Virus record (IMG/VR): IMGVR_UViG_3300035126_001491
Location: 1-47,011 of that record
Reading direction: 5' to 3' (one strand)
DNA: 47,011 nucleotides
Origin: a virus
The notes under the pieces were generated by a model. It did no database searches and had not been told where the DNA came from. It saw only the letters and a program-made list of their open reading frames with translations. Below, piece after piece: positions 19,521-34,164 of the stretch; the first letter of the stretch is position 1, and the number at the start of each line of letters is the position of its first letter. Position numbers and translations under genes: made by a program.

Positions 19521-20021
19521 ATGAATGACAGAAAAGAACAATTACAAAAAGCAATAATGACGAATGATATGGAGCTTGTCAGGGATTTTTATGAATATAT
19601 ATTTGGGGATAAGCCGCCGAAGACTCTAGCATCTACAAATAAAAGCTCTGTGGCTGAAGACTATCGTAAAAAAATCCGAATGGCAATTCATATACTCTCA
19701 GATGAAGCTGAAGATTTAGAGTATATAGACACTCATGAGGTTGTCAAGGAAAAACCAAGGCCTGCAGCTACTAACAACTCTGATATGCAATTTATATCTA
19801 GCAAGGACTTTGAGCTTCCAGAAGATAATAATCCAGAGTACGAAAAACTAGCTAAATCAATCCCAAAAAGAAAAAAAGAAAAAAGACCAGATTATAAAGC
19901 AAATGTAGTTAAGTGTGCGTTATGTGGTTCTGATTTTGATTTTAATAAAGAATACCCAGTCGGTATGCTAGAATCGGGCGCGAATGCCAAGATCAAATGC
20001 AACAAGTGTCGTGCAGGATAA
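19521..20021 (+). CDS. Zinc-ribbon protein upstream of the helicase
   Basis: A 166-residue protein. The N-terminal 70 residues are helical, the middle is low-complexity and Lys/Pro-rich (KSIPKRKKEKRPDYK), and the end is a zinc ribbon: CALC, then about 27 residues, then CNKC. Such an arrangement is compatible with a DNA-binding loader or accessory protein for the adjacent DnaB-type helicase, but this is inference from position only. The 3' end overlaps the helicase reading frame. Confidence 0.5.
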   Translation: MNDRKEQLQKAIMTNDMELVRDFYEYIFGDKPPKTLASTNKSSVAEDYRKKIRMAIHILSDEAEDLEYIDTHEVVKEKPRPAATNNSDMQFISSKDFELPEDNNPEYEKLAKSIPKRKKEKRPDYKANVVKCALCGSDFDFNKEYPVGMLESGANAKIKCNKCRAG

Positions 20022-21447
20022 GTCTTTCGATATAGACTCTGAGGTATCAATTCTGGGATACGCTGTAAAATGCGGGTCTCAGAATTTTTATTCTGGCATA
20101 TCAGATATAGACTCTTCCTTTTTCAAGGATAAAGATCACGGTCTTATTTTTGAGTCTATCAAAAATTCATATGAGTCTCGCCATTCAGAAGAACCGTCAA
20201 TAGAGGCCGTGGCAAATTTTGCTAGAAATTCCGCATCATGGACAACCCATGATAAAGAAACTTTCCTAGAAAAATTGGAAGCCTGTTACTCAAAGAATGT
20301 TAGCGAGGCCGATGCCAATCTCGCGCTTAGGCGTGTCAAGTATTGGCATATAGTTAGAAAGCTAGGCAGTAAGCTAAAGGAGTCTTATTCAGATCTCTGC
20401 AAGACTAGCGGCGACGAAGACATAGTCGAAATAGTAACCAAGGTAGAAGAGACCATATTTAGTTTCATTCCAGAGATAAAGAAGGAAAACGATTATGTAA
20501 ATATATGTGACTTTGCTCTTGGGCATATAGAGTATATTAAAAATAATCCAGTAAGCTATGCTGGTATGCCGACAGGATTCCCTAGGTACGACCAGTGCAT
20601 AGGTGGTGGATATAGGAGAGGAACGGTTAATGTAGTTGGCGCTAGACCAAAGGTCGGTAAAAGCACCTTTTGCCTTAACGTTGCAAAGAATGTTGCCTCA
20701 AACGGCGTTCCTGTTCTTTACCTAGATACAGAGATGAAGAAAGAAACACAGACTGTAAAATGGGTTTCTCTTTGTTCTGGAATACCACAATCTGAGATCG
20801 AAACCGGCGCTTTCGCCTCTAGCGAGAGATCTTCATTTATAATTAAGGAAACTATAGAGAACCTTAAATCAACTCCTTTTTATCACACGTCTGTAGCAGG
20901 ACTTAAGCCGCAAGAGATATTCTCGGTTTGCAGAAGATGGCTAGCTAGCATTGTTGGTAAAAACAAAGATGGATCGACTAAAGACTGCCTAATTATTTTG
21001 GATTATCTAAAAACAATGGATCTAGGAGATTTGGGCGATTTTCAGGAGTACCAATACTTAGGAGATTTTATAACAAAGCTTCACAACTTTGCCGTGAAAA
21101 GCGATGTTCCAGTTCTAGCAACAGTTCAGTTAAATAGAGATGGAATAAATAAAGAAGACACTAGTGTTGTTTCTGGAAGCGATAGAATTCTTTGGCTTTG
21201 CTCAAGTTTAGCTTATTTAAAGAAGAAGACCGACGAAGATATAGCCGCTGGTGACAGCAAGGCTAACGGCGACAGAAAAATGGTTGTTGTTGAAACTAGA
21301 TACGGAAAAGGCATGGATTCTTCCTCAGAGTACATAAATGTAGTTTCAAACATGGACAAGTCACAATTCACGGAAGGAAAGTTTAACTTTGAGGTTATTG
21401 GTGAAGGTCTAGAAAATGATGACGACGACGAAGATCTCCAGTTCTGA
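19984..21447 (+). CDS. dnaB: DnaB-type replicative DNA helicase
   Basis: It unwinds duplex DNA ahead of the polymerase as a RecA-fold hexamer. A 487-residue protein with an N-terminal helical domain (about 15-120) beginning SEVSILGYAVKCG. The motor domain has GMPTGFPRYDQCIGGGYRRGT, Walker A GARPKVGKST (219-228), VPVLYLDTEMKKE (motif 1a) and CLIILDYLKTMDL (Walker B). PVLATVQLNRDG follows as the sensor strand. The ATG at 19984 overlaps the upstream gene by 38 nt. An in-frame GTG at 20011 could be the true start. The primase gene overlaps its end by 32 nt. Confidence 0.9.
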   Translation: MPRSNATSVVQDKSFDIDSEVSILGYAVKCGSQNFYSGISDIDSSFFKDKDHGLIFESIKNSYESRHSEEPSIEAVANFARNSASWTTHDKETFLEKLEACYSKNVSEADANLALRRVKYWHIVRKLGSKLKESYSDLCKTSGDEDIVEIVTKVEETIFSFIPEIKKENDYVNICDFALGHIEYIKNNPVSYAGMPTGFPRYDQCIGGGYRRGTVNVVGARPKVGKSTFCLNVAKNVASNGVPVLYLDTEMKKETQTVKWVSLCSGIPQSEIETGAFASSERSSFIIKETIENLKSTPFYHTSVAGLKPQEIFSVCRRWLASIVGKNKDGSTKDCLIILDYLKTMDLGDLGDFQEYQYLGDFITKLHNFAVKSDVPVLATVQLNRDGINKEDTSVVSGSDRILWLCSSLAYLKKKTDEDIAAGDSKANGDRKMVVVETRYGKGMDSSSEYINVVSNMDKSQFTEGKFNFEVIGEGLENDDDDEDLQF

Positions 21448-22492
21448 ACTTAAAAAATTAGCAGATTCATACGATCTTCCAATCCTAGAGGCTCTAGGTT
21501 TTGATTCTATAACACCAAAGGGAATTCAGCAAAAATGCATAATACACGGCGGTGATAATCCAGCCGCATTTTCTTTTGATAGAAGAAGAATGTGCTGGTC
21601 GTGCTTCACTCACGGCTGTCACAAAAAATACGGAAACGACATAATAGGCTTGATAAGAGCCGTAAAGAACTTTGGCTACAATGATTGCGTTGATTGGATT
21701 CTTCAGATTGTCAACAATCCAGAAATAAACGCTGGATATACACCTGAAGAAAAAGTCTTCACTTCAAATCCGCCAAATAAAATACTAGACGAATCAATAT
21801 TAGAAAATCTAGAGGCTGACTTTTCAAGCATATCTGATAGAAGTTTCTCGGAAAAGACTTTGTTTCATTTTCAGTCTGGGGTTCCCAAAAACAAAGTTAA
21901 AATGCAGCACAATAGATTGATGATACCTATAAGAAATGAGGGCGGGCAGCTGGTTGGTTTTACTGGCAGAAGCGTTTATGAAAAAAGTGATAGAACTGGC
22001 GGATATCATCCAGAATGGGCAAATGCTGAGGGTAATTTCACTGCAATTTTTTCAAAATGGAGACACTACCCAAAAGGTCTTAACAAGAGCGGGGAGCTTT
22101 ATAATTTTCACGAAGCAAAAAGATGGGCCGAAAGACTAGGATTTCTTATAGTAGTCGAAGGTCCATTTGACGCTTGGAGACTTTGGGAGTTTGGTGTTAA
22201 AAATTGCGTAGCTTCTTTTGGTTGCTCATTGTCAAAGGATCAGTTTGATAAAATAAAGAAACATAATTTTAAATGCATAGCCCTAGCTTTTGACTCTGAC
22301 CTTGCTGGTAAATCTGGCTTTGAAAAAGCTGATTCTATTTTTAAAGATAGAATTTCAGTAGAAAAATTAATACTTCCTGACAACAAGGATCCTGGAGATC
22401 TTAAGACAGAAGACTATAATATGTTCATAAAACCTCAACTATCAGTATTGAGAAGGCGCTATGAATACAAAGATAATAATCATAACGGGTAA
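21416..22492 (+). CDS. dnaG: DnaG-type DNA primase
   Basis: It makes RNA primers for DNA synthesis. A 358-residue compact version of DnaG. The zinc-binding domain has C41-x2-H44 and C60-x2-C63. The Toprim domain has the catalytic E248 in LIVVEGPFDAWRL and the acidic pair D293/D295 in ALAFDSDLAGKSG. The intermediate region includes RLMIPIRNEGGQLVGFTGR, another primase-helicase motif. A long DnaB-binding C-terminal domain is absent, giving a shorter protein than cellular DnaG (about 600 residues). It overlaps the helicase and the dNMP kinase genes. Confidence 0.88.
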   Translation: MMTTTKISSSELKKLADSYDLPILEALGFDSITPKGIQQKCIIHGGDNPAAFSFDRRRMCWSCFTHGCHKKYGNDIIGLIRAVKNFGYNDCVDWILQIVNNPEINAGYTPEEKVFTSNPPNKILDESILENLEADFSSISDRSFSEKTLFHFQSGVPKNKVKMQHNRLMIPIRNEGGQLVGFTGRSVYEKSDRTGGYHPEWANAEGNFTAIFSKWRHYPKGLNKSGELYNFHEAKRWAERLGFLIVVEGPFDAWRLWEFGVKNCVASFGCSLSKDQFDKIKKHNFKCIALAFDSDLAGKSGFEKADSIFKDRISVEKLILPDNKDPGDLKTEDYNMFIKPQLSVLRRRYEYKDNNHNG

Positions 22493-23114
22493 AGCACAAA
22501 GCGGAAAAGATACCTCCGCGAATTTAATTAAAAAAAATCTGTGTTCTTTTGGTAAAACTTGCGATATATACGCATTTGCTGGAGAATTAAAAAACATATG
22601 CGAGAACATATTTGGGCTTGCTAATCAGCAGTGTTGGGGTTCTGATTTTGATAAGAACACCAAAACAAATTTTAAGTGGCGAGATCTACCCTTACCAAAA
22701 GACAGATTGGCTATTATAATGAATAAACCAAGTGCGCCAAAGCTAGACGATAGCTTAACTGCTCGTGAGGTTATGCAAATATGGGGTACAGATATTTTTA
22801 GAAAATTTGACAACGATTGCTGGGTTCGCTCTACAATAAAGAGAATCAAAAAAGAGAGTCTTGATTTTGCAATTATTGCAGACGCTAGATTTCCAAACGA
22901 AATAGATTATTGTTTAAAATATAAGCCTACAGTAATAAGATTGACTAGAAACGTCACATCAAACAATCATGAGAGCGAAGTAGCTTTAGATAATTACAAT
23001 TTCGACACCATAAAAAGCTACACCATAGACAACCAACATATGTCCATAGAAGAACAGAATGAAAAACTAAAAAATATAATGAAAGAGATAATTAATGATA
23101 GTTGCGATGAATGA
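22461..23114 (+). CDS. Deoxynucleoside monophosphate kinase (T5-type)
   Basis: It phosphorylates dNMPs to dNDPs, recycling nucleotides for phage DNA. A 217-residue P-loop kinase with Walker A GKAQSGKDT (10-18), the lid/substrate region LTAREVMQIWGTDIFRKFDNDCWVRS, and ADARFPNEI (140-148). That combination is typical of phage dNMP kinases. It overlaps the primase gene by 32 nt and the next gene by about 20. With ThyX, ribonucleotide reductase and dUTPase it makes the phage largely self-sufficient in dNTP supply. Confidence 0.8.
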   Translation: MNTKIIIITGKAQSGKDTSANLIKKNLCSFGKTCDIYAFAGELKNICENIFGLANQQCWGSDFDKNTKTNFKWRDLPLPKDRLAIIMNKPSAPKLDDSLTAREVMQIWGTDIFRKFDNDCWVRSTIKRIKKESLDFAIIADARFPNEIDYCLKYKPTVIRLTRNVTSNNHESEVALDNYNFDTIKSYTIDNQHMSIEEQNEKLKNIMKEIINDSCDE

Positions 23115-23535
23115 ATCTTCAATACTGTCTGACATATACGACAGCGATAATCCAGCAAGGATTAAGATATACAACTCCATAAGAAAATTTCTTGCTTCAT
23201 TCCCAAAAGGAACCATTCATTGTATTGGAAAATATAAAAACGGAATATCAATGGATTTTTGCGAGGTCTGTTCTGAAATAGGCATCTTAAGAGAAGTAGT
23301 CGTTCCTTACGAAGATAATGATCATAGTTGGCCAGATCCCATAAAGAACAAGTTTAAAAAAATAATAAAAAGCTCTAATTCTGTTTTTTTGGTTTCTACT
23401 GGCGGATTTAATCCAAAAAAAATAAAAGATATGAACAATTATGTTTATAAAAAATCAGATTATATAATAAACATAGTTTCATCCGAAAAAAACTTAGAAA
23501 TCAAAGTGGTTAAAAATGGAAATAAAATTTCTTAG
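23095..23535 (+). CDS. Possible SLOG-fold nucleotide-binding protein
   Basis: A 146-residue protein. The strand order (IHCIGKYKNGISMDFCEVCSEI, LREVVVPYEDNDHSWPDP, SNSVFLVSTGGF, NNYVYKKSDYIINIVSS) recalls SLOG-superfamily proteins related to DprA, YpsA and LOG. These bind nucleotides or nucleotide-derived signals with a Gly-rich loop after the first strand. The canonical GG-A loop is degraded, so this is tentative. An in-frame ATG at 23107 is an alternative start. The next gene overlaps its end by 20 nt. Confidence 0.45.
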   Translation: MIVAMNESSILSDIYDSDNPARIKIYNSIRKFLASFPKGTIHCIGKYKNGISMDFCEVCSEIGILREVVVPYEDNDHSWPDPIKNKFKKIIKSSNSVFLVSTGGFNPKKIKDMNNYVYKKSDYIINIVSSEKNLEIKVVKNGNKIS

Positions 23536-24496
23536 AGCTTCTTCAATAAACTCTTATAGAGGTTGCGAGTTTGCTTTTTTTATGGAGCAAATCTTAGAGA
23601 TACCAACAAAGAGCGGAAAAAAGGCACTGTTAGGCACTATTACTCATCATGTGCTAGAACTAATGGCAAAAGCAAAAAAGCTAGGTCACAATGGTGGCTT
23701 GCTTTTTGATCATGAAAAGCTTCTTGATATATGTTGGAATAGATATACAAAAGAAAATCCAGAAATGGATTTAAAAAAGGGCGACAAAAAATTTTGTCTT
23801 TCATCAATTCAAAAAGTTATAAATACTTTTTATGATCCAAAAAATCTCAACGTTCTGCATACAGAAAAACAGTTTAGGATACCATTAACAGATCCTGTTT
23901 TTAAATATGAATATTATGATATAGTAAAAGGTGTTGTTGAAAAAGGAAATTATGAGATAAGGGGGACGATAGATTTGATAACCCAGGTTGACAACGAAAC
24001 TATTGAGGTTGTTGACTGGAAGACTGGATCTAGAAAATGTTGGAACACAGGCGAGAACAAGGAGTTTGAGTATCTTCAATCAAAAGACATACAGCTAAGA
24101 ATGTATGACCTAGCCTGCTATTTAATGTTTCCGCAATACAAGAACAGGCTTCTAACCATTCATTTTATCAATGATGGTGGACCTTTTACTGTTGCTTTTT
24201 CCGACGAAGACAGAAAAGAGACCCTGTCCATAATAGAAAAAACATTTAAAAATATTAAATGGAACCAGCTTCCAACTAGACTAAAAGAAAGCAACGCTAG
24301 CGATAGGTGGAAATGTAAAAGTGTTTGCCACTTTGGCAAAACAAAAACAGCAGCCGGCTGCAGCATTTGCGACACAATACATTCTTACGTTGTTGGAAAC
24401 GGTATAGACCAGACGATACTAGAGATAGATAAGCTAAAGAAATCTAAGCAAGAACTAAAAAACAAAACTAGCGATAGGAGAAACGTTTTTGAATAA
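23516..24496 (+). CDS. RecB/Cas4-like PD-(D/E)XK exonuclease with Fe-S cysteines
   Basis: A 326-residue nuclease. H45 in GTITHHVLE, D153 in RGTIDLI and D167-x-K169 in EVVDWKTG form the RecB-type active site. C17 near the start and three or four C-terminal cysteines (C267, C271, C282, C285) match the layout of a 4Fe-4S cluster, as in Cas4, AddB and Dna2-type nucleases. There is no CRISPR array or other Cas gene here, so a DNA end-processing role in recombination or replication is more likely than spacer acquisition. It lies directly upstream of the polymerase N-terminal half. Confidence 0.82.
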   Translation: MEIKFLRASSINSYRGCEFAFFMEQILEIPTKSGKKALLGTITHHVLELMAKAKKLGHNGGLLFDHEKLLDICWNRYTKENPEMDLKKGDKKFCLSSIQKVINTFYDPKNLNVLHTEKQFRIPLTDPVFKYEYYDIVKGVVEKGNYEIRGTIDLITQVDNETIEVVDWKTGSRKCWNTGENKEFEYLQSKDIQLRMYDLACYLMFPQYKNRLLTIHFINDGGPFTVAFSDEDRKETLSIIEKTFKNIKWNQLPTRLKESNASDRWKCKSVCHFGKTKTAAGCSICDTIHSYVVGNGIDQTILEIDKLKKSKQELKNKTSDRRNVFE

Positions 24497-26357
24497 TATG
24501 AACTACACACCACTACATGTACATACATGCTGGTCTCTCTTAGACAGCACGGTTGACGTAAATGAATATGTCGCAAAAATAAAAGAGACTGGAGGCTCTG
24601 CTTGCTCAATAACCGATCATAATAATTTAAAAGCGGTTGTTCCATTCTTCAAAGCGTGTAAGGCTAGGGGAATAAAGCCAATAATAGGCGTCGAAGTGGA
24701 CGTTTATTTAACTGACGAAAAATTTATTGGCAGGCTAACGCTGATAGCCAAAAACAAAGTTGGCTACAAAAATCTAGTAAATATAGTCTCAAACGCTAGA
24801 TCAGAGTCTGTGTTTAAAAAAGAGACTACGCCAAAAACTTTTTTCAAAGATCTTCACCAATACTCTAGCGGGATCATATGCATGATCGGTGACTTAAGAA
24901 GCGAAATTTTTCATTCTTGCTTTGTTAATTTTGAAATGGCGTACGGCTCAAATAGCGAGGAAGAGTGCGAGAGCCTTCTTAGGCAGGACTGGAAAGAAAA
25001 AGTAAATGAGGTATTAGAAAAATACAGGAAGGTATTTAGCGATGTATTTTTATATTTTGATTATTCAAAACTTCCAATTATTAAGGTTTTAGGCCAAAAA
25101 ATAAAACAAGAATTTTATGAAGCTATACCCTCTGTAAATGTGCACTATATATCAAAAGAAGATTATCAGATTCACAGTCTTATATCAAGCGACTCAGAGG
25201 CTTTGTCTTCAAATATAGATGATTCTAGAATTTTTGAAGAAGAGTATTGCTTTTGCCACCTTACAAAAACAATTCCTTCTGGCGAAAAGACCAAATTGGT
25301 TGTAGATTTGGTTGAGGACTTCTCAATAGAAGAGCGCCCCATGATACCAGATTTCAAGGTTAAAGGACATGAAATACAGGATCAGGACGAGTATCTTAGA
25401 GATATTTGCAGAAAGGGCTTCTTAGAAAAGATATCGCCAAAGATTTCTTCAGACGCAAACCTCAAAAACATCTACCTAGACAGGATTAGACACGAGTTAG
25501 GTGTTTTCAAGCAGGCTAAGATATCAGGATATTTTCTAATCGTCAAAGACATTGTTGATCACATTAAACAAATGGGCTTTCCAGCAGATAGCCGCGGCTC
25601 TTCTTCAGGCTGCTTAATTTCCTACCTAATAGGTGTATCGTCAATTGATCCAATAGTGCCAGATGCATCACTTGCATATGCAAAAGAAAGAGAGCTTCCT
25701 TTTGAAAGATTTTACAACGAAGGAAGAAACACCGCTAGTAATGTTTCTTTGCCAGACATTGATATGGACGTACCCCCTTCCATAAGAGACGATGTTATAA
25801 AATACCTACGCGAAAAATACGGAAAAGATCAAGTGGCTCATATAATCACGCATTCTAGGTTTAAAGGTAAGGGTGCGATAAAAGAAGCTTTTAGAATATT
25901 AAAACCTGTTAACAATTACTTTGATGTATCGAATGAAATAACAAAGCTTTTTGTTGATGAGAGCAAGATATCAGATGAATTAATTGAACTTCAAGAAGAA
26001 GACCCGTCATACGGAATTATAAGATGGAATATAGATAATATTACTGATGTAAATAAGTTTTACAATCAATACAAAGAGGCTTTTGATTTTGCTATAAAAA
26101 TAGAAAAGTTGCCAAAAAACGAAAGTGTTCATGCTGCTGGTATAATAATAGGCGATAGACCGTTATATAAGCACTTTCCAATGACATATTCAAGCAAGTT
26201 AGGTCAGATGGTAATTGATATCGAAGGTTCAGATTTAGAAATTCTTGGAGGCGTTAAGTTTGATATATTAGGAGTTTCTGCTATAGAAAAGGTTTTCCAG
26301 ATAGAGAAAATGATAAATAAAAAACTTAATGAGGTTAGATTTGGAGAATTAAATTGA
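24489..26357 (+). CDS. dnaE: DNA polymerase III alpha, N-terminal half (PHP and palm)
   Basis: The catalytic half of a split DnaE-type polymerase, 622 residues. The PHP domain has H10-V-H12, ITDHNN (about 41-46) and IIGVEV, all metal-ligand motifs kept. The palm has SRGSSSGCLISYLIG (368-382), PDIDMD (422-427, two catalytic Asp), VHAAGIIIG (548-555) and VKFDILG (589-595, third catalytic Asp D592). The protein ends about 20 residues later, before the GVFQLES fingers motif that follows in intact DnaE. The rest is at 31987-33504. The TTG at 24489 is chosen because AGGAG lies 8 nt before it, and an ATG at 24498 is the alternative. No intein sequence is present at its end. Confidence 0.92.
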   Translation: MNNMNYTPLHVHTCWSLLDSTVDVNEYVAKIKETGGSACSITDHNNLKAVVPFFKACKARGIKPIIGVEVDVYLTDEKFIGRLTLIAKNKVGYKNLVNIVSNARSESVFKKETTPKTFFKDLHQYSSGIICMIGDLRSEIFHSCFVNFEMAYGSNSEEECESLLRQDWKEKVNEVLEKYRKVFSDVFLYFDYSKLPIIKVLGQKIKQEFYEAIPSVNVHYISKEDYQIHSLISSDSEALSSNIDDSRIFEEEYCFCHLTKTIPSGEKTKLVVDLVEDFSIEERPMIPDFKVKGHEIQDQDEYLRDICRKGFLEKISPKISSDANLKNIYLDRIRHELGVFKQAKISGYFLIVKDIVDHIKQMGFPADSRGSSSGCLISYLIGVSSIDPIVPDASLAYAKERELPFERFYNEGRNTASNVSLPDIDMDVPPSIRDDVIKYLREKYGKDQVAHIITHSRFKGKGAIKEAFRILKPVNNYFDVSNEITKLFVDESKISDELIELQEEDPSYGIIRWNIDNITDVNKFYNQYKEAFDFAIKIEKLPKNESVHAAGIIIGDRPLYKHFPMTYSSKLGQMVIDIEGSDLEILGGVKFDILGVSAIEKVFQIEKMINKKLNEVRFGELN

Positions 26358-26560
26358 AACCTATATCTAGCGCTTCAATATCGATAAAAGAAGATAGCGA
26401 TAGGATATTAATGCAACAAAATGGTCAAACTATAGCTATAGCTAATATAAATGATGTGATGTTGGCAATAGAAATTTTAAGCGCTTTTAAACACAGATTT
26501 TTTATGACCAAATCCTATAATTATAATTTTGTGTATAAAAATAGTGATGGACCGCTTTAA
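26354..26560 (+). CDS. Hypothetical small protein
   Basis: A 68-residue protein from a TTG overlapping the TGA of the polymerase half. It contains KEDSDRILMQQNGQTIAIANINDVMLAIEIL, which looks like a small strand-strand-helix unit. No family is recognised, and its reality rests on tight coupling and the lack of another frame in this stretch. The next gene overlaps its 3' end by 14 nt. Confidence 0.35.
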   Translation: MKPISSASISIKEDSDRILMQQNGQTIAIANINDVMLAIEILSAFKHRFFMTKSYNYNFVYKNSDGPL

Positions 26561-27674
26561 TTTAAATAAGCACATAAATCTAGCCGCCGCAAATTACTTT
26601 ATAAAGGCCGATGATGAGTTATCGGATGATGAGCTATCGATAGAAGAAGGTGCTTTGTTTGATGCTATTAGGCAGAGCATGAATCCTGAGACGGAGGAGG
26701 GCGTTTGGCAATTTATACAGCAAAATCTTGCGTCTATCTTGAGTGGAAGCGGCATCGCGCTGACATTAATGCTTAATCAAAACTTTAGAAATTGGATGAA
26801 GAGAATAAGCATTAGTTTGTGGAATATGTTTAAAAGATCTGGTCTTTCTTCTTCTCAAGCATTACAAAAAGTAATCCTCTTCTTAAGAGATCTATTTAAA
26901 AGCGGTCCAAATAACCCAAATAATCCTTTATCCCAAGATTGCATGGACGCTCTCAGAGGCCTAAAGGATATATTCTTAACGATATCTCAAATGCCTATTG
27001 AAACATCGATTACCGCATTGATAAACGCTCTAACTGAAGCTGTTTCTTTAGCGGCTAGCATAATAGCTAAACTAGCCTCTTGCACTGGTATTGGGGCACA
27101 ATACGCGTATAATTTCATATATGAATGGCTACTAATCTTGCTAGGTGAAGGACTATCAGCAATGGGGCTTACTCAAGATCAAATAAAGCAATTTATAAAG
27201 AAACTGGTAGAATGGATTCTTAACGGAGCTAAGGTTCTAGAAATTCCACCTCTGCCATACGTTTTACCATTTAGTCTTCCAAGATTAGATCCAAATTGCG
27301 TAAATCCTAGAAACTATCTAAAAGATCTAAGAATTCATAGAATAGAAAACAATGAATATGTTGTGCCATTTTTAGCTGGCTTAGCTTGGGCCGCGCTAAT
27401 AGTGGCCGCTGTTGCCGCTGTTTTAGCTGCTCTTCCCGCAATATTGGCTGGATCAACAACAGTTGGCGCTGTTTTAACCGCTGCTGGCATAACGGCGCTA
27501 GGGCTATCACAAACAGCTTCAGCTGCTGGCTATGAAATGACAGAAGAACAAATTGAGGCATTTATATTAGAAAAGGCTAAAGAAGCCGCTAAATGTAAGG
27601 GCGTAAGTGTTGAAGAAAATTCAGACACGCCAGAAGACAATCAAACAAACCCAGCGCTTAGTCCTTCGAGATAA
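26547..27674 (+). CDS. Virion-like protein with C-terminal membrane segments
   Basis: A 375-residue protein from the ATG at 26547 (a TTG at 26529 is less likely). The N-terminus MDRFNLNKHINLAAANYF resembles other leaders in the window and is followed by an acidic stretch. The middle is helical with amphipathic segments. Residues about 275-330 contain one or two hydrophobic helices (LAGLAWAALIVAAVAAVLAA, then an Ala/Gly-rich segment). These are followed by MTEEQIEAFILEKAKEA and an acidic tail. The gene at 29472 on the other strand has the same hydrophobic-then-acidic-helix end. An internal head or membrane-active ejection protein is inferred. Confidence 0.5.
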   Translation: MDRFNLNKHINLAAANYFIKADDELSDDELSIEEGALFDAIRQSMNPETEEGVWQFIQQNLASILSGSGIALTLMLNQNFRNWMKRISISLWNMFKRSGLSSSQALQKVILFLRDLFKSGPNNPNNPLSQDCMDALRGLKDIFLTISQMPIETSITALINALTEAVSLAASIIAKLASCTGIGAQYAYNFIYEWLLILLGEGLSAMGLTQDQIKQFIKKLVEWILNGAKVLEIPPLPYVLPFSLPRLDPNCVNPRNYLKDLRIHRIENNEYVVPFLAGLAWAALIVAAVAAVLAALPAILAGSTTVGAVLTAAGITALGLSQTASAAGYEMTEEQIEAFILEKAKEAAKCKGVSVEENSDTPEDNQTNPALSPSR

Positions 27675-27960
27675 ATCTAAGATTTAGCCTAAAAAGAATT
27701 TTCGCAATTGCTGAAGCTGTTTCAGAAACGCTTTCTTCTGATAATTCAGGGTGGGTTGCGTGCAGCATTTCATGTATAATTGTGTCTAACTTATCTTTTT
27801 CTGATAAATTCCTATTTATCCAAATCTCTGGTTTCTTGTACCTGTGATCATCACATTCTCCAAAAGATCCTGGCATATCCTTAGATTTTACAAATCTAAT
27901 AGTCCAATTCTTTCCATTAAACTTAAATTTTACTTTTTCTTCTTTCTTTGCGGGTGGCAT
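27658..27960 (-). CDS. Small HExxH metallopeptidase-like protein
   Basis: A 100-residue protein with HEMLH (63-67) in TIIHEMLHATHPELSEESVSETA. It is a minimal zincin motif with a downstream Glu in the EESVSETA helix as a candidate third zinc ligand. The N-terminus is a short beta sheet (KFKFNGKNWTIRFV, PEIWINRNLSEKDK), like SprT-type or ImmA-like phage peptidases. It may process virion proteins or act on host proteins, and the target is unknown. Its 3' end overlaps the convergent plus-strand gene by 17 nt, and it overlaps the next minus-strand gene by 31 nt. Confidence 0.6.
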   Translation of the reverse strand: MPPAKKEEKVKFKFNGKNWTIRFVKSKDMPGSFGECDDHRYKKPEIWINRNLSEKDKLDTIIHEMLHATHPELSEESVSETASAIAKILFRLNLRFISKD

Positions 27961-28313
27961 GATGGTAAAAGATCTACATCAAATGGCTTTCTCTTGAAAG
28001 ACCCTGTCCTTAGAGCGTGAAGAAAACCGTTAACTCTACCATATCCCCACTGCTGTGGCCCTGTAACATTTGGTCTTACGCTTTCAGGATTGGTTTTATA
28101 TGCACCAACGCCTCTTCTAAAAACGGCCATTAATGTTTTTGTAGATGTTTTTTTGCAAGAATCTTGACCATATTTCTCATTATGATCAGTTGCCTTTTTA
28201 GCTAGAGTTTCTCTAACTGACTTACTCTGTTCTTCGCCTAAAGCAAAAAAAATAACATCTAAAAAACTTAGATTAACTTCTGACATCGGTACTTCTATAT
28301 CTTCACTGTTCAT
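27930..28313 (-). CDS. Conserved phage protein (FRRGVGAYKTNPESVRPNV type)
   Basis: A 127-residue protein. The second half (TLMAVFRRGVGAYKTNPES, then VRPNVTGPQQWGYGRVNGF, then HALRTGSFKRKPFDVDLLP) is a motif I recall from many phage and large-virus proteins, sometimes fused to head or protease genes. I am not sure of the family number (possibly DUF5824). Function is unproven, and association with virion genes is the common theme. It overlaps the lipoprotein-like gene by 11 nt. Confidence 0.55.
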   Translation of the reverse strand: MNSEDIEVPMSEVNLSFLDVIFFALGEEQSKSVRETLAKKATDHNEKYGQDSCKKTSTKTLMAVFRRGVGAYKTNPESVRPNVTGPQQWGYGRVNGFLHALRTGSFKRKPFDVDLLPSCHPQRKKKK

Positions 28314-28545
28314 TTTTGCTACTCCGTTTGGTAATAAACTCTCTGTAGGCCCATAGGAAAGCTATTATTGCTATTGGCGCATACCAAAAAATCCAACCGT
28401 AACTATTACCACTCTGACCAGAATCTATACCCTTTTTAATTGCATATGTCATAGGCGAATCATTTCTTTCATCTGGAATGAATTGTGGTCCAGAAAAACA
28501 AGAACTCATAATTAGGGTTAGATAAATTATTGTTAGCTTTTTCAT
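28303..28545 (-). CDS. Small lipoprotein-like membrane protein, possible spanin or lysis accessory
   Basis: An 80-residue protein. The N-terminus KKLTIIYLTLIMSSCFSG is a short signal sequence with a possible lipobox ending at Cys16 (MSSC, an imperfect match). A second hydrophobic segment (GWIFWYAPIAIIAFLWAY) near the C-terminus is followed by basic residues. Two membrane anchors in a very small protein next to a holin-like gene fit a phage lysis accessory or spanin-type role. This is inferred from position and shape only. Confidence 0.45.
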   Translation of the reverse strand: MKKLTIIYLTLIMSSCFSGPQFIPDERNDSPMTYAIKKGIDSGQSGNSYGWIFWYAPIAIIAFLWAYREFITKRSSKNEQ

Positions 28546-28979
28546 GTTTTATTTCCCGCAGAGGCGCTACCAAAATAAAAACCAACAATACTCAAAAGTA
28601 TTTGCCTGTATTCTCCAGCATACAGATATCCGTTTATCTCAACGAAAAAAGTTTTATTAAAACTAGGTATAAATCCTAAGAAATATTCTGGAGACTCTGT
28701 TTGAACTTCTACGAAAGTTGGTATTCCAAAAAACGGTAAAACGAATGGCGCGGCTAATGTGGCAAAAAGAACAGTAAGAACTATAAGTTGTCTTACGCCC
28801 TTTCCAATATCTATTGGTACTCTTTTAACAGCGTTGTCCTTAGCTTTTTCTTTTTGTTCGTTTAAAGCTATAAGCCTCTCAAAAAGCTGCTTGTCGTTAT
28901 CTCTTTTCTCTGCTAGATAACGAAAAACAAAGCCTGTTATTCCGCCACCCAACATAGAAAGGAGTTCTACAGGTATCAT
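28542..28979 (-). CDS. Holin-like membrane protein (three-TM type)
   Basis: A 145-residue protein. It starts MIPVELLSMLGGGITGFVFRYL (hydrophobic N-terminal segment), then a charged helix with EKRDNDKQLFERLIALNEQK. A long hydrophobic stretch (LIVLTVLFATLAAPFVLPFFG) follows, and it ends with LLSIVGFYFGSASAGNKT. The order, and especially the GFYFGSxxxGxK end, match the three-TM holin family of phages and gene transfer agents as I remember it. Holins form lesions in the inner membrane at lysis. No endolysin is seen beside it. It overlaps both neighbours by 4 nt. Confidence 0.6.
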   Translation of the reverse strand: MIPVELLSMLGGGITGFVFRYLAEKRDNDKQLFERLIALNEQKEKAKDNAVKRVPIDIGKGVRQLIVLTVLFATLAAPFVLPFFGIPTFVEVQTESPEYFLGFIPSFNKTFFVEINGYLYAGEYRQILLSIVGFYFGSASAGNKT

Positions 28980-29479
28980 GATTTATCTTTATTGAATTTT
29001 GATATTTTTTTATGCATCTGTTGTCTATTTGAGCAAGGCATAAAATAATTTGTGTTTGGTTTCAAACCAGGCTGTTTCCCATCTATATTAAAAAATCTTT
29101 GTATTGTATCACAACCTAATTTTTTTGCGAGTTTTCTGGCCGCCTTTTTCTTCGTAAATGTATATGATTTATAATCTTCCTTGTCAATTTCTGAAGATGT
29201 ATAATCAGTTACACTCTTTTTCTTTTCCCACATTCTGCAAGACCAGTATCTAGCCTTCCATTTTGGGCCTGGATTGTCATCACAGCTGTGTCTCGATCTA
29301 AAATTCTTTCTCCTGTTGTCGCTGTCTCTTTTTATTTCCATATTTGGATCTCCAAACATAACACGGACAACGTTTCCTTTGTCATTTTTCACATAAACGT
29401 AGAATTTTTTCTTTCCGTAACCAGGATCACCTTTACCTATTCGTCTAGGTTTGTTTAAAGTTACATTTTTTTTATCCAT
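28976..29479 (-). CDS. Conserved virion-associated protein (FGDPNMEIKRD/WSCRMW motif)
   Basis: A 167-residue basic protein. The N-terminal part KKFYVYVKNDKGNVVRVMFG, DPNMEIKRD, NFRSRHSCDDNPGPKWKARY and WSCRMW is a motif common in marine phages and some algal viruses, often attached to prohead-protease or capsid genes. The second half (FTKKKAARKLAKKLGC, NTNYFMPCSNRQQMHKKI) is a separate small Lys-rich domain. A head-assembly or virion link is inferred from those associations. It overlaps the gene on either side by a few bases. Confidence 0.55.
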   Translation of the reverse strand: MDKKNVTLNKPRRIGKGDPGYGKKKFYVYVKNDKGNVVRVMFGDPNMEIKRDSDNRRKNFRSRHSCDDNPGPKWKARYWSCRMWEKKKSVTDYTSSEIDKEDYKSYTFTKKKAARKLAKKLGCDTIQRFFNIDGKQPGLKPNTNYFMPCSNRQQMHKKISKFNKDKS

Positions 29480-30431
29480 TTAATAAATCCTCCTGCTGCT
29501 GAATTCTTTCTTGTATTAATTGCTGTATTTCACTATCTGACATATCGGCCAGAGCCGCTCCTGAACAAGTAAGCGCCGCCCCGCCAGTTACCGCAAGCGC
29601 TATTGGTGCGGCTGCTCCACCAGTAAAGACTATTATTGCAACCGCACCTATACCAACCGTAGTCCATAGAGCCACTTGACCCCAATCTACACCTGCCGTT
29701 GGTCCTTGCGTAGTTTGACAACCATACCGTCGAACTACACAGTCTGCAGCCCAAGCAGCCGCAAGCTGTGGATTATAATTTCTGATCATAGCACCTAAGG
29801 CTAAACTAGGCTCTAATGCTCCAGTAAGCACTTTATCAAATATGTCCTTAAGGCCACCAAGTTCATCAACACCAGCAAAAGGACTAAATTCTATCAAAAG
29901 GTCTAAAAATTTTTTAAACTCTAAATTACATTCCCCATTAGAAATTATTGCTAAAAGATCGCGCATATCTGACAGAAGATCTGATAATGTCTTAACAATC
30001 AAAATAATCCCTTCGCTTTCTGCTATTCTCGGCTCTCGCAGAATTCCCCAAAATCTTCCAATCCAAGTCTGTGCAGGATTAGCTATAGTAGATGCTGGAA
30101 CTGAATCTTTAAATATATTTATAAAAGCCTCTAACTCAGCAATAATTCTTTTCATTCTTGGATCTTTAAAATACTTTAAACAATTTGGCGGCAAATTTTT
30201 TAGCCAGTCCTTAATTTTAACAACAGCTGCGGCACCCAAAAAAGTAAGAGAAAATAGAACTGAAACGGTATCAACCTCGGTATTACTTATCCCAAGAAAA
30301 GATTCTCCTAAAAGTTCCGCATCAGGCAGTTCCGCATCAGGCACAGCTGTGATACTATCAATCCTGACCTCTTCATTCGCGGCCGTGTTAAGTAAGAATT
30401 TAATATTTAATTGTTTTTTATTGTTTTTCAT
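29472..30431 (-). CDS. Virion-like protein with C-terminal membrane segment
   Basis: A 319-residue protein. The N-terminus MKNNKKQLNIKFLLNTAANE has the basic leader seen in several genes here. The middle is helical with scattered cysteines. Near the C-terminus is a hydrophobic stretch (TTVGIGAVAIIVFTGGAAAP, then ALAVTGGAAL) and the acidic amphipathic helix MSDSEIQQLIQERIQQQ. The ending parallels the plus-strand gene at 26547, so the two appear to be diverged paralogues or analogues. A membrane-active internal virion protein is the favoured guess. Confidence 0.5.
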   Translation of the reverse strand: MKNNKKQLNIKFLLNTAANEEVRIDSITAVPDAELPDAELLGESFLGISNTEVDTVSVLFSLTFLGAAAVVKIKDWLKNLPPNCLKYFKDPRMKRIIAELEAFINIFKDSVPASTIANPAQTWIGRFWGILREPRIAESEGIILIVKTLSDLLSDMRDLLAIISNGECNLEFKKFLDLLIEFSPFAGVDELGGLKDIFDKVLTGALEPSLALGAMIRNYNPQLAAAWAADCVVRRYGCQTTQGPTAGVDWGQVALWTTVGIGAVAIIVFTGGAAAPIALAVTGGAALTCSGAALADMSDSEIQQLIQERIQQQEDLLNG

Positions 30432-30685
30432 AAAACGTTCTCTAGTTGATCCTCTGTTTTTACCAAAACATCCCCATTTTTGTAAGTATTTCCAAAGTTT
30501 TCAACTTTATAGTGGATTAAGTACCCAGAATTGTTTGGTAGACTTTCAATCTTTACGACCTTTCCAACGCTTCCATAATGTAAACACTTCGCATTTATGT
30601 TCTTAACAGTATCGCCAACCATGAATCCTTTATAGCTAGCGGTTAACTTGTTAAGGAGTTTTTGTATTGATTTTGATAGGGACAT
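30428..30685 (-). CDS. Small SH3-like domain protein
   Basis: An 85-residue protein. The leader-like start MSLSKSIQKLLNKLTASYKG is followed by a small beta-barrel-type domain: GDTVKNINAKCLHYGSVGKV, ESLPNNSGYLIHYKVENFG, YKNGDVLVKTEDQLE. This KCxHYGSxGxV...GD.L.KTxDQL pattern recurs in phage head proteins to my recollection, but I cannot name the family. It is the first gene of the minus-strand run, divergent from the metallopeptidase gene at 30715. Confidence 0.5.
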   Translation of the reverse strand: MSLSKSIQKLLNKLTASYKGFMVGDTVKNINAKCLHYGSVGKVVKIESLPNNSGYLIHYKVENFGNTYKNGDVLVKTEDQLENVL

Positions 30686-30696
30686 TTAACTAACCC

Positions 30697-30710
30697 AATA
30701 GTGTATACAC
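30697..30710. promoter_or_regulatory. Divergent regulatory region: AATAGTGTATA element with GTGTATACAC palindrome
   Basis: The 29-bp space between divergent genes holds AATAGTGTATA (30697-30707), identical to 14910-14920 and at the same distance (18 nt) from the ATG. It also holds the perfect 10-bp palindrome GTGTATACAC (30701-30710). No Shine-Dalgarno site precedes the plus-strand ATG at 30715. The palindrome could be an operator or a bidirectional promoter core. Confidence 0.4.
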
Positions 30711-30714
30711 AATT

Positions 30715-31326
30715 ATGCCAACACATCAGATCCCAGGTGATTTCTTAGATTTTGTCAAAGAAACTTGCGCTAGAAATGGCATTAAGCTTAAGATAGGCAG
30801 GGGCAAGTCTGTTGTTATGAAACCTTTTGGGTTTAGAGTTTTAGGATATTTTGACGAAGGCGGTTCAATACTTGCCTGTGCCAGCGGAGGGTCCGCGCAA
30901 GATTTTCTTTCAACACTAGTTCATGAGTTTGCGCATGTTTTACAGTGGATTGAGGGAGACAAAACGTACAAGTTCTGCGATCATAGAAAATATGGCAGTG
31001 TTCAAAATGCGGTTTGTATGTGGATAAATAATGAGATAACTTTGAATAATAAAATCTTAATTAGGTACACTCAAAAAATGATCGATTGTGAATTAAACGC
31101 AGAAAGAAGAGCAGTAAAACTAATAAAAGAATTCAATCTTCCAATTGATCTAGACATATATAAATCTAAAGCTTCAGCCGTTCTTTATAGTTATTGGGTT
31201 TCAATAAAAACCAAAAAATGGGACGCTAAGATAGGTAAAAAGCAAATGGCTGCTAGTGGAAGATCGCTTAAAAGGTCTTTTAGGAGTCTTCCAAAAAACG
31301 TCGAAAGATCCTTCATAGGCGCCTAA
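30715..31326 (+). CDS. HExxH zinc metallopeptidase-like protein
   Basis: A 203-residue protein with the zincin motif HEFAH (70-74) in TLVHEFAHVLQWIEGD and a candidate third ligand in the helix DCELNAERRA (E126 or E130), the glutamate-zincin layout. The C-terminus is basic (GRSLKRSFRSLPKNVERSF). Phage metallopeptidases of this type are often annotated SprT-like, and the substrate is unknown. It begins after the divergent AATAGTGTATA region and leads the operon with the exonuclease, second polymerase half and SSB. This is the second HExxH protein of the window. Confidence 0.65.
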   Translation: MPTHQIPGDFLDFVKETCARNGIKLKIGRGKSVVMKPFGFRVLGYFDEGGSILACASGGSAQDFLSTLVHEFAHVLQWIEGDKTYKFCDHRKYGSVQNAVCMWINNEITLNNKILIRYTQKMIDCELNAERRAVKLIKEFNLPIDLDIYKSKASAVLYSYWVSIKTKKWDAKIGKKQMAASGRSLKRSFRSLPKNVERSFIGA

Positions 31327-31334
31327 AATGATTC

Positions 31335-31985
31335 ATGGCCAACAATAAGAATTTCGTTGTTTTTGACTTAGAAACTAGCGGGTTAGATCCTAAAGACGGC
31401 GCTGAGATTGTTCAGATATCAGCGGTTGCTTTAAAATATTCAGACTACTCTGAAATAGAAAATGGTAGGTTTGATTTGCTTATAAAGCCTCAAAAGCCCG
31501 AAAGGGCTAGTCCAGACGCTATAAAGGTGATTGGCGAAGATTTATGGAGTAGGGCTAAATCTGATGGACTTCATCCAAAGGTTGGCATAAGAAAGTTCAA
31601 AGAGTTTTTAGACTCTGTTAATCATACAAAGAAGTTTTGGACATCCCCAGTTCTTGTTGGCTTCAACATAGTAAACTTTGACATACCATTCCTTAAGCAC
31701 CAGATGCTTGAATACAAGATAATATCAGAAAAAGATGATTTACCCTGGTCTAACATGCAAATAGACATGTTTCCATTGATGTTTTGCATATTTGGAAGAG
31801 ACGGTTTGAAAAACAACAAGATGGACACGTATGCAGAGATAATAGGACTTAAGAGAGCAACCGCAAATCACGACGCTGCTGAGGATGTAGACATAACAAA
31901 AAAGATGTTCCAAAGATATATGAACTTCATGAACTTTAAAATAAGACCAAAAATAAACGCTCAAAAAGAAACCCAAGCAAATTAA
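31335..31985 (+). CDS. dnaQ: DnaQ-type 3'-5' proofreading exonuclease
   Basis: A 216-residue DEDDh exonuclease: Exo I FDLETSGLD (D11, E13), Exo II GFNIVNFDIPFL (D116), Exo III NHDAAEDV (H179, D184). It would remove mismatched ends behind the polymerase, like epsilon of DNA polymerase III. The gene ends 1 nt before the start of the C-terminal half of the split polymerase, a clear sign that the products work together. It is separated from the upstream metallopeptidase by 8 nt. Confidence 0.88.
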   Translation: MANNKNFVVFDLETSGLDPKDGAEIVQISAVALKYSDYSEIENGRFDLLIKPQKPERASPDAIKVIGEDLWSRAKSDGLHPKVGIRKFKEFLDSVNHTKKFWTSPVLVGFNIVNFDIPFLKHQMLEYKIISEKDDLPWSNMQIDMFPLMFCIFGRDGLKNNKMDTYAEIIGLKRATANHDAAEDVDITKKMFQRYMNFMNFKIRPKINAQKETQAN

Positions 31986-31986
31986 A

Positions 31987-33504
31987 ATGACATTTGAGAC
32001 ATCAAACATATCGTTAAAAAACGACAAGGCTTGGCGGCTAATACAGAATGGTCACACTATAGGCGTATTCCAACTAGAGAGTGATCTCGGTAAGAAATGG
32101 TCTGCTACAATAAAGCCCTCTAATATAAATGAGCTTAGCGCCGTAATATCATTGATAAGACCTGCGTGCCTAGAATCTGGAATGACCGAGACTTATTCAA
32201 AGGTAAAAAGTGGATTAATTGAGAAGCCAGATTACAATGATGAGTCTGTTAATTCGATACTGTCCCCAACAATGGGTGTTCTTATATATCAAGAACAGCT
32301 GATGAAATTTGGTGGCGAAATAGCTTGGAGGGATCTTCCATACCTTGATAGACTTGTGATTGTTGATAAGCTTAGAAAAGGCATTGGTAAGAAGGATCAA
32401 AAAATAATTATTGATCTTAGGGACAAATTCATAGCAGGATGTCTTAAGAACGGTAGATCAAAAGAAATGGCTGAAAAGCTTTTTTCTCTTATCGAAGGCG
32501 CTGGTAGATATGCTTTTAACGATGCTCATGCTAAAAAATATGCGCTTTGGGCTTACAAAACAGCCTACGTAAAAGCAAACTTTCCGCTTGAATTTTATTG
32601 CGTCTATCTAACCTACAGCAAAGGTAAACAGAAGCCTAGAGAGGAGATAGAGGATTTGATAAACGAGGCTAAGATGCTTGGTATAAGTATAGAAAAACCT
32701 TCTGTTTCAAAGTCAAATTTTGACTTCTCAATAAAAGAGGGCGTCATTCATTATGGTCTATCTCACATAAAACAGGTTGGTGAATCTGACGCCGAACTGA
32801 TAGAATCTATTAGACCAGCTAGTTTTACTAGTTTACTTATCACACACTTCGCGTCTTCAGAAAAAATAAGATCACTAGCCCTAGAAAGCCTTATAAATTG
32901 TGGGGCTTGCGATGAATACGGACTATCTAGATCGTGCATGCTATCTGTCTACAACATGCTTAAGCAATTAACTCAAAAAGAGATCGAGTTTATTTTCTCA
33001 AAAATAAATTCAGAAAGCGGAGTTCTAGATTTGATTGAGGCTGTTAAAAAATGTTCTGTTGAACAATGCGTAAAGAAAAGAAAAGACATAGTTATGTCAG
33101 AAGCTTTGTCAATTGACATAAAGTCTAGCGACTCTGCAGTGATAAAAAATTCTGTTGAAAAAGATCTTCTTGGAATAGCCTTTAGTTATGATTACAATGT
33201 AAATGTCGAAGACGACTGGAGTTGCAAGGAGTGTTTCAATAAAATGCGTGTCAACAAAAACATGATTGCGAATCTGACTGTAAAAATAAACGATATCAAG
33301 ATTACAAAAACAAAAAAGGGCAAAGATCCTGGCAAGGATATGTGCCAACTTTCTATTGCAGACAACACTGGTTTTATAAACGTGGTTTGCTTCCCCGACA
33401 CATACGAGAAATTTAAAAACTCTATAGCGGTTGGTTCATACTACTCCGTAGTGCTTAAGGGAACTGGATTCGGTTGGTCTGTAAATTCAATTAAAAACGT
33501 ATAA
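31987..33504 (+). CDS. dnaE: DNA polymerase III alpha, C-terminal half (fingers, HhH region, OB fold)
   Basis: The second half of the split DnaE, 505 residues. It begins within the palm-fingers linker (ISLKNDKAWRLIQNGHTIGVFQLES; in intact DnaE IPLDD...GVFQLES). It continues through IRPACLESGM (RPGPLxSGM), MGVLIYQEQLMKF, DKLRKGIGKKD and AGRYAFNDAHAKKYALWAYKTAYVKANFP. It ends in an OB fold (about 420-505; TVKINDIKITKTKKGKDPG, IADNTGFINVVCFP). Lengths sum to 1127, close to E. coli DnaE (1160), so nothing large is missing. No PHP or catalytic Asp residues are here. A clamp-binding motif is not obvious. Confidence 0.92.
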   Translation: MTFETSNISLKNDKAWRLIQNGHTIGVFQLESDLGKKWSATIKPSNINELSAVISLIRPACLESGMTETYSKVKSGLIEKPDYNDESVNSILSPTMGVLIYQEQLMKFGGEIAWRDLPYLDRLVIVDKLRKGIGKKDQKIIIDLRDKFIAGCLKNGRSKEMAEKLFSLIEGAGRYAFNDAHAKKYALWAYKTAYVKANFPLEFYCVYLTYSKGKQKPREEIEDLINEAKMLGISIEKPSVSKSNFDFSIKEGVIHYGLSHIKQVGESDAELIESIRPASFTSLLITHFASSEKIRSLALESLINCGACDEYGLSRSCMLSVYNMLKQLTQKEIEFIFSKINSESGVLDLIEAVKKCSVEQCVKKRKDIVMSEALSIDIKSSDSAVIKNSVEKDLLGIAFSYDYNVNVEDDWSCKECFNKMRVNKNMIANLTVKINDIKITKTKKGKDPGKDMCQLSIADNTGFINVVCFPDTYEKFKNSIAVGSYYSVVLKGTGFGWSVNSIKNV

Positions 33505-33521
33505 AAAACTTTTAGGCTTAC

Positions 33522-33527
33522 TATAAT
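33522..33527 (+). promoter_or_regulatory. Probable -10 box (TATAAT) for ssb
   Basis: A perfect TATAAT in the 40-nt gap before ssb, 17 nt ahead of the ATG, with a GAGG ribosome site between. Unlike the boxes before 11529 and 12548, there is room here for a short leader. A -35 hexamer is not evident. It would allow extra expression of SSB. Confidence 0.5.
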
Positions 33528-33544
33528 CTTTCACGAGGTAAAAC

Positions 33545-33970
33545 ATGGCAAATTACAATAAAGTTATTCTTGCAGCAAACTTAGTTTCAGATCCAGAGCT
33601 TAAGAACGTTGGAGACTCCAATGTTGTTAGATTTAGAGTGGCTATTAATAGAAAGTTCACGACTAAGTCTGGCGAAAAGAAAGAAGAAAGCACATACATT
33701 GATTGCGAGATGTGGGGTGCTAGAGCTAGTGTCATTTCTGAGTATATGACAAAAGGCGACCCAATTCTTATTGACGGAATTCTAAAACAAGAGAATTGGG
33801 AAACAAAGGATGGAGAAAAGCGAAGCAAGCACATCATAAGCATTCAGGATTTTGAGTTTATGAGCAATAAGAAGACTGCCGCAACAAGTTCGTCTTCTAA
33901 CCCTGTAGTAAAAGAGAATAAGCGGCCAACAAGAGAAGCAGTAGCGCAGCTAGAAGATATTCCATTCTGA
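33545..33970 (+). CDS. ssb: Single-stranded DNA-binding protein
   Basis: A 141-residue bacterial-type SSB. The OB fold runs NKVILAANLVSDPELK, VVRFRVAINRKFT, TYIDCEMWGARASVISEYM, GDPILIDGILKQENWETKDG and HIISIQDFEFM. A Pro/Ser-rich linker leads to the acidic tip EDIPF (137-141), the canonical docking peptide for replication and repair proteins. It lies after the polymerase C-terminal half with its own likely promoter and a GAGG ribosome site. Confidence 0.93.
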   Translation: MANYNKVILAANLVSDPELKNVGDSNVVRFRVAINRKFTTKSGEKKEESTYIDCEMWGARASVISEYMTKGDPILIDGILKQENWETKDGEKRSKHIISIQDFEFMSNKKTAATSSSSNPVVKENKRPTREAVAQLEDIPF

Positions 33971-34164
33971 TGAGCGAAGTAAAACTAGAAAAATTTTTAG
34001 AATTTTTAAGATCTCAGGGGCTGTTGAAAAATACGGCCCCTGATAACATGGAAATAATAAAGCAATATGCAAATCACGCAACAGCAGGACAACATAAAAG
34101 AGTTTTACCAGGGTACGAAGGATTCACACAAGGATCGAAAAAAGCGGGTCCTACTAATAGGTGA
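33970..34164 (+). CDS. Hypothetical small protein
   Basis: A 64-residue protein, starting in a TGATG overlap with ssb. The N-terminus (KLEKFLEFLRSQGLLKN) is a short helix pair. The last third overlaps the next glycosyltransferase frame by 98 nt and looks non-conserved. It is probably real because it fills the space and is coupled, but function is unknown. Confidence 0.35.
   Translation: MSEVKLEKFLEFLRSQGLLKNTAPDNMEIIKQYANHATAGQHKRVLPGYEGFTQGSKKAGPTNR

Follow-up and report, generated by a model that had tools for sequence, protein, structure and literature searches.

The stretch analysed here, hereafter called the window, is the 47,011-base IMG/VR virus record IMGVR_UViG_3300035126_001491, classed as linear, in which a DnaE-type DNA polymerase is encoded in two separate parts. 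The N half, polN (24489..26357, plus strand), contains the PHP, palm and thumb regions and encodes 622 amino acids (aa) when read from a TTG codon at 24489, or 619 aa from an ATG at 24498. The C half, polC (31987..33504, plus strand, 505 aa), contains the fingers, HhH and OB regions. Both are intact open reading frames (ORFs) on the same strand, and they are separated by a variable insert (26354..31326) followed by the gene of a DnaQ-like DEDDh 3'-5' exonuclease (31335..31985, plus strand, 216 aa; RNase_T Pfam match of 5e-14). The original prediction, made from the sequence alone, had described a replicative polymerase split into two complementary proteins 5.6 kb apart, with an exonuclease encoded 1 nt before the second; this last spacing is exact, the exonuclease stop codon ending at 31985 and the polC ATG lying at 31987. 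The start codon of polN differs among relatives or is ambiguous: a GGAG motif lies 8 nt upstream of TTG 24489 and 17 nt from ATG 24498 (window 24477-24500), so that the TTG is the better spaced of the two, and the equivalent of the ATG is the start in the relatives L005, L010 and L012.

The domain content of the two products agrees with the predicted partition. The N half matches the Pfam families PHP (PF02811, 4e-34) and DNA_pol3_alpha (PF07733, 1.7e-57) and carries the three catalytic aspartates attributed to it (D423, D425 and D592, which we take to be equivalent to E. coli D401, D403 and D555). The C half matches DNA_pol3_finger (PF17657, 4e-31) and HHH_6 (PF14579, 1e-14); its OB fold gives a Pfam match of 24.7 bits, under the 27-bit cut-off, and OB-type chains align to its structural model at about residues 405-505, as expected for a protein running from the fingers to the OB fold. 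A CxxC pair (C413 and C416, window 33223-33234) lies beside this fold and is invariant in the 17 aligned polC rows (17/17). The YAFN motif, presumably the site (YCFN/YAFN) at which the cyanobacterial DnaE is split, is whole within polC (residues 175-178), again as had been stated.

Profile alignments locate the break precisely. On phrog_405 (length 1190), polN covers positions 40-619 and polC positions 624-1053. In the E. coli alpha subunit, the match of the N half extends up to 576 and that of the C half starts from 584; the corresponding limits in Taq are 636 and 644. This alignment check confirms the proposed position of the break at the palm-fingers junction. Moreover, the match of polC to the Pfam finger model begins at position 21, which places the cut about 20 residues inside this model, in the palm-to-fingers segment. 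In the E. coli and Taq structures, the DnaE chain crosses the palm-fingers boundary once.

Structural models of the single halves were computed with AlphaFold2 and gave, for the N half, a predicted local distance difference test score (pLDDT) of 74.0 and a predicted template modelling score (pTM) of 0.60 and, for the C half, a pLDDT of 72.7 and a pTM of 0.50. The best structural match of each is a Pol III alpha chain: 4iqj_A residues 5-619 for the N half (Z 24.3, 443 residues, root-mean-square deviation (rmsd) 5.5) and 4iqj_D residues 639-1121 for the C half (Z 17.0, 438 residues, rmsd 12.8). The fold match of the N half extends over its PHP domain. The model of the C half aligns up to residue 1121 of Taq (chain of 1220) and 1073 of E. 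coli (of 1160), and no counterpart to the far C-terminal part of an intact DnaE was seen in its structural alignments. The summed length of the two products is thus near that of DnaE, as the original prediction had it, but its corollary that nothing large is missing may not extend to this far C-terminal part. The C-terminal tau-binding domain belongs to the E. coli type of DnaE and is not present in every DnaE.

In near relatives, the two halves belong to a cassette with the order PD-(D/E)XK nuclease, polN, variable insert, DnaQ-like exonuclease, sometimes a methyltransferase-like gene, polC and single-strand DNA-binding protein (SSB). In the window, the nuclease (23516..24496, plus strand) and the SSB gene (33545..33970, plus strand) occupy these two ends, and they adjoin polN upstream and polC downstream, respectively, in the near relatives whose sequence reached that far. 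The window insert comprises two plus-strand ORFs, seven minus-strand ORFs and then a plus-strand ORF upstream of the exonuclease (30715-31326). The 203-aa protein encoded by this last ORF is a member of a cluster of 11 ORFs among the compared stretches, and has weak metallopeptidase-like matches (DUF6782, SprT-like) below the cut-off. The spacing between polN and polC ranges from 0.67 kb (G009, G018) to more than 10 kb (G015, G019), and in two relatives (L012 and L022) the insert is absent and the exonuclease ORF alone fills the gap. Since some relatives lack the insert and show this compact N-exonuclease-C form, the 5.6-kb spacing is due to the insert and secondary to the split; the distance given in the original prediction is correct, but it is not part of the split itself.

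Consistent with the claim that neither end carries an intein, no intein family was matched in a Pfam scan of both halves, and no Rfam family was found at E<=0.1 in window positions 23000-35000. That the two proteins nevertheless become joined, through a trans-splicing intein that escaped recognition, RNA trans-splicing or a large intron, appears to us very improbable. Precedents exist in the intein-split DnaE of cyanobacteria, mentioned in PMC3919608, and in the putative split intein described for PolB of the jumbo phage MIJ3 (PMC6892783). However, beside the lack of intein and Rfam matches, the ends of the halves nearly abut their DnaE matches (the N half runs on for about 10 residues past the last one, and the match of the C half begins at profile position 2-3), the intervening region of the window contains minus-strand ORFs, and the compact form, in which the gap is taken up by the exonuclease ORF, leaves no room for an intron.

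The same break recurs widely among viral sequences. We searched 21 related whole records, together with a search for close relatives: 14 of the 21 encode the two halves in separate, co-oriented ORFs (47-99% identity), six have one half only (polN in one, polC in five) and one (G004) encodes a distant intact DnaE of 891 aa. In one of the 14 (locus L024 of G020), the polC frame has no usable start before the conserved region, contains N bases and shows an in-frame TGA near its end, which are probably assembly problems. Profile searches of viral contigs with polN and polC queries, in which 80 of 229 and 80 of 106 relatives were taken, found the break in relatives at about 33% identity. The 163 overlapping or near-identical loci were merged into 113 distinct groups, the window itself being left out. 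Sixty-nine groups are of the split class (68 at the palm-fingers junction and one, L166, elsewhere), 22 are intact, 6 are cut elsewhere, and for the other 16 no single stretch shows both halves. The break point that the original prediction proposed to look for in phage and metagenomic sequences is thus present in 68/113 groups, a proportion which is not a frequency among phages because the loci were found with polN and polC queries and only part of the relatives was taken.

Further cuts were seen in some of these loci. Some members of the split clade described below have additional cuts, which give three or four ORFs; these lie within polC in L116 and L118 and within polN in L152-L155, L153 (from a 175.8-kb record) being cut once more. 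In L144-L149, L151 and L167, the viral DnaE is cut elsewhere (within the palm, profile 413/409-422, and at 365/344). Among the best 80 of 304 bacterial relatives, 79 loci have both halves in one ORF; the only one with DnaE in two overlapping ORFs is L233 (Acidimicrobiia bacterium FR_3), whose break differs from the window junction and is perhaps a frameshift.

An assembly artefact, either the joining of two contigs or frameshift errors, was named in the original prediction as a possible source of the split. Some members are indeed imperfect, such as L024 with its N bases and in-frame stop in the C half, but the same order and break are found across contigs of many metagenomes and also in two cultured phages, Corynebacterium phage P1201 and Rossellomorea phage phiT1, and we regard the chance of such an error as practically negligible.

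Trees were built after near-duplicates and loci short of either half had been dropped, with 20 or 14 bacterial loci and, in a coarser tree, 22/23 GenBank phage stretches. The 42 split representatives form one clade, with a support of 0.994 for the concatenated halves, 0.79 for the N half and 0.98 for the C half. With coarser clustering and the GenBank phages included, the clade consists of 30 representatives, has a support of 1.0 and contains no intact member. The distance matrices of the N and C halves are correlated (r 0.90, the best of 999 permutations reaching 0.21), which indicates that the halves have travelled together. Approximately unbiased (AU) tests, comprising 34 rows with groups named after a tree had been seen, rejected a single origin of every junction-split polymerase (p 2.3e-6). 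Indeed, a clade uniting P1201 with the present family was rejected (p 5e-66), P1201 being sister to the intact polymerases of GTE5 and Skysand (support 0.993), whereas one uniting phiT1 with the family was not (p 0.575). The palm-fingers junction has therefore been broken at least twice independently, in this clade and in P1201, which suggests that it is a permissive natural cut; shared ancestry of phiT1 with the clade is neither shown nor rejected.

Residues of both halves are conserved among the split representatives, including the catalytic ones of polN. D423, D425, D427 and D592 of polN are invariant in all 42 split representatives, as are finger residues of polC such as R58, Q102, E103, R130, K135, H181 and Y185. 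Between the window and the relative L003, the ratio of nonsynonymous to synonymous substitution rates (dN/dS) is 0.043 for the N half, 0.067 for the C half and 0.084 for the exonuclease. Other polymerases were sought in 12 chosen records (window included, up to 243.8 kb), which may be fragments: PF07733 occurs at exactly one place in each, and PolA and PolB were found in none (0/12). A PolA candidate in each of two records failed scoring. The beta-clamp family PF02767 was likewise absent from 12/12. A full-length dnaE elsewhere in the genome, which according to the original prediction would make one half a relic, was found in none of these 12 records.

These results bear on the alternative that one or both halves are dead, the phage using the host replicase, or that a half does another job such as repair. 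A host enzyme could serve the phage, and the absence of any other polymerase cannot be proved from incomplete records. Against this stand the invariance of the catalytic residues of polN and of several finger residues of polC in 42/42, the low dN/dS of both halves between the window and L003, their co-inheritance, the lack of another polymerase family in the 12 records, and the presence alongside of genes for a DnaB-like replicative helicase (19984..21447, plus strand), a DnaG-type primase (21416..22492, plus strand) and the SSB. We therefore consider this alternative improbable.

The exonuclease accompanies the split in almost the whole clade. In 66 of the 68 junction-split groups its gene separates the two halves, and it is on the same strand in all 97 loci counted (97/97, overlapping loci included), and its catalytic D, E, D, H and D residues are kept in 112-117 of the 118 ORFs obtained from the loci (81 distinct sequences). 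Judged by this gene order, it is a likely partner of the polymerase.

Taking these data together, we think it quite probable, on the basis of comparative sequence data, that the only recognisable replicative polymerase of this phage is a DnaE-type enzyme assembled non-covalently from polN and polC, with the exonuclease as a probable partner. The N half would supply the PHP scaffold, the palm, the thumb and the catalytic metal ligands, and the C half the fingers, HhH and OB domains, the two associating across the natural palm-fingers surface. The neighbouring DEDDh exonuclease would proofread and would probably bind the same complex, most simply on the PHP domain; in E. coli, the epsilon subunit binds PHP. 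The split would most simply have occurred once, at the base of the phage clade, nearly all members of which have the exonuclease gene in the break.

Several observations weigh against this interpretation. First, the models of the single halves are of moderate quality, and the longest alignments of the C half with DnaE give an rmsd of 10.7-13.7 A, which indicates that its domain arrangement is poorly modelled. Second, the polN positions that we take to be PHP metal ligands are kept by only some half of the 42 representatives (H10 in 18), so that proofreading most likely resides in the separate exonuclease. Third, dN/dS values based on few changes are scattered: the C half gives 0.228 between the window and L007 (7 synonymous and 6 nonsynonymous changes) and 0.334 between L012 and L022 (3 and 4), the N half of this last pair giving 0.00 (13 and 0). 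Fourth, none of the records is known to be a complete genome, and that of the window is classed as linear. Finally, no recognised exonuclease lies between the halves in the split representatives L136 and L138, which together form the deepest branch of the split clade in the trees and whose gap ORFs have no Pfam match; in these loci the exonuclease may have come after the split, or may have been lost.

The suggestion that the exonuclease bridges the two halves has to be seen in this light. L136, L138, P1201 and phiT1 have no recognised exonuclease between the halves, which weakens the idea that every such break needs one, and a bridge encoded there is consequently not a general requirement; a required bridging role is suggested by gene order and is not supported otherwise. 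A stronger version would be an obligate three-subunit replicase composed of polN, the exonuclease and polC, in which the proofreader, its gene lying inside the broken polymerase gene, structurally connects palm with fingers or verifies their assembly. We judge it unlikely; if it held, polymerase activity would appear only once the proofreader was bound, and an ancient rearrangement of single origin would have persisted throughout a diverse group of phages, whose records reach 244 kb.

Elsewhere in the window, a gene for a UvsX-like recombinase accompanies the helicase, primase and SSB genes. Several glycosyltransferase genes (PHROG and Pfam matches) are located at 34067-38974 and 11529-12536.

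Split polymerases are known from other phages, and the original prediction overstated the uniqueness of the arrangement. A fold search against viral models found short Pol III alpha pieces in named phages including P1201, G, PA5, Fowlmouth and LW81. We further compared 23 GenBank phage stretches, chosen by hand (P1201 and G for their short pieces), so that the counts represent no frequency: 17 are intact and 6 are broken (phiT1, KLEB27-3, P1201, G, Rope and SA-C12). In GenBank, 1,294 phage records match polN. The DnaE of Rope is cut between PHP and palm, that of SA-C12 within the fingers, and that of KLEB27-3 slightly later than the junction, with an HNH gene in the break (gp166 / HNH / gp164). 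In Bacillus phage G (NC_023719), DnaE is in pieces (gp329, gp331 and gp339) and one break lies at or near the junction, gp331 ending at N profile position 555/576 and gp339 starting at C profile position 2. It differs from the window in that DnaE is divided into three, that the other break holds a homing endonuclease gene and that many genes lie between.

These cases raise a different origin of the split, compatible with non-covalent assembly, in which a mobile homing endonuclease divided the gene, as for T4-like gp43 and phage G, and the exonuclease came later. This is suggested by the orders gp329 / homing endonuclease / gp331 in phage G and gp166 / HNH / gp164 in KLEB27-3, and by the seg homing endonuclease located where gene 43 is split in Aeromonas phage 25, for which the paper describing it leaves causation open (PMC2988022). 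However, no homing endonuclease family was found among the window insert ORFs scanned, although an old, lost element is conceivable, and the break holds the exonuclease gene in 66/68 groups, while the gap ORFs of L136 and L138 have no Pfam match. We consider such an origin possible but doubtful.

Non-covalent assembly of polN and polC is the simplest reading of the split, and a working precedent is provided, in another polymerase family, by the T4-like gp43A/gp43B, a split replicative polymerase; its two parts co-purify and show activity (Petrov et al. 2010, cited in PMC2988022). Unlike the present system, it belongs to family B, and according to the same report its split is accompanied by a homing endonuclease in phage 25 and by an untranslated insert in phage 44RR. 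The cyanobacterial split DnaE, also encoded by two genes, is rejoined by a split intein at another site, whereas the window halves match no intein family. For group 2.2 jumbo phages, Iyer et al. 2021 (PMC7824862) describe a minimal Pol III alpha made as two proteins from separate genes, which are considered to reconstitute the enzyme together. As described there, this form is limited to the catalytic core, lacks the other Pol III domains and is accompanied by a family B polymerase; the window polymerase, in contrast, has PHP, HhH and OB, and PolB was found in 0/12 records, which may be fragments.

The closest counterparts are P1201 and phiT1. In P1201 (gp59/gp58, NC_009816), a full-length DnaE is interrupted at this palm-fingers junction, the match of gp59 to the N profile reaching 575/576 and that of gp58 to the C profile starting from 4; the finger match starts at Pfam position 22 (21 in the window polC) and no intein family was matched. 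Unlike in the window, no exonuclease gene separates the annotated ORFs, which overlap by 29 nt, and the split has a separate origin. In phiT1 (gp20/gp18, PV767480), the junction is the same, the finger match starts at Pfam position 20 and no intein family was matched; both halves are annotated "DNA polymerase III subunit alpha", and a 49-aa ORF alone lies between them, without an exonuclease.

Splitting of Pol III alpha and of PolB in phages is therefore already known (PMC7824862, PMC2988022). In the literature searched, which covered few subscription papers, we found no description of a DnaE that is split between palm and fingers and has an exonuclease gene nested in the break. Compared with the systems above, what is new is a whole clade of uncultured phages in which PHP, HhH and OB are kept, one main break site is used and an exonuclease gene is nested in the break. 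This indicates that a bacterial-type replicative polymerase can stay permanently cut between its catalytic palm and its fingers across a diverse clade, apparently without splicing. The breaks offer ready-made split points for testing the assembly of C-family polymerases, and the clade is a group of phages whose gene order ties the polymerase to its proofreader.

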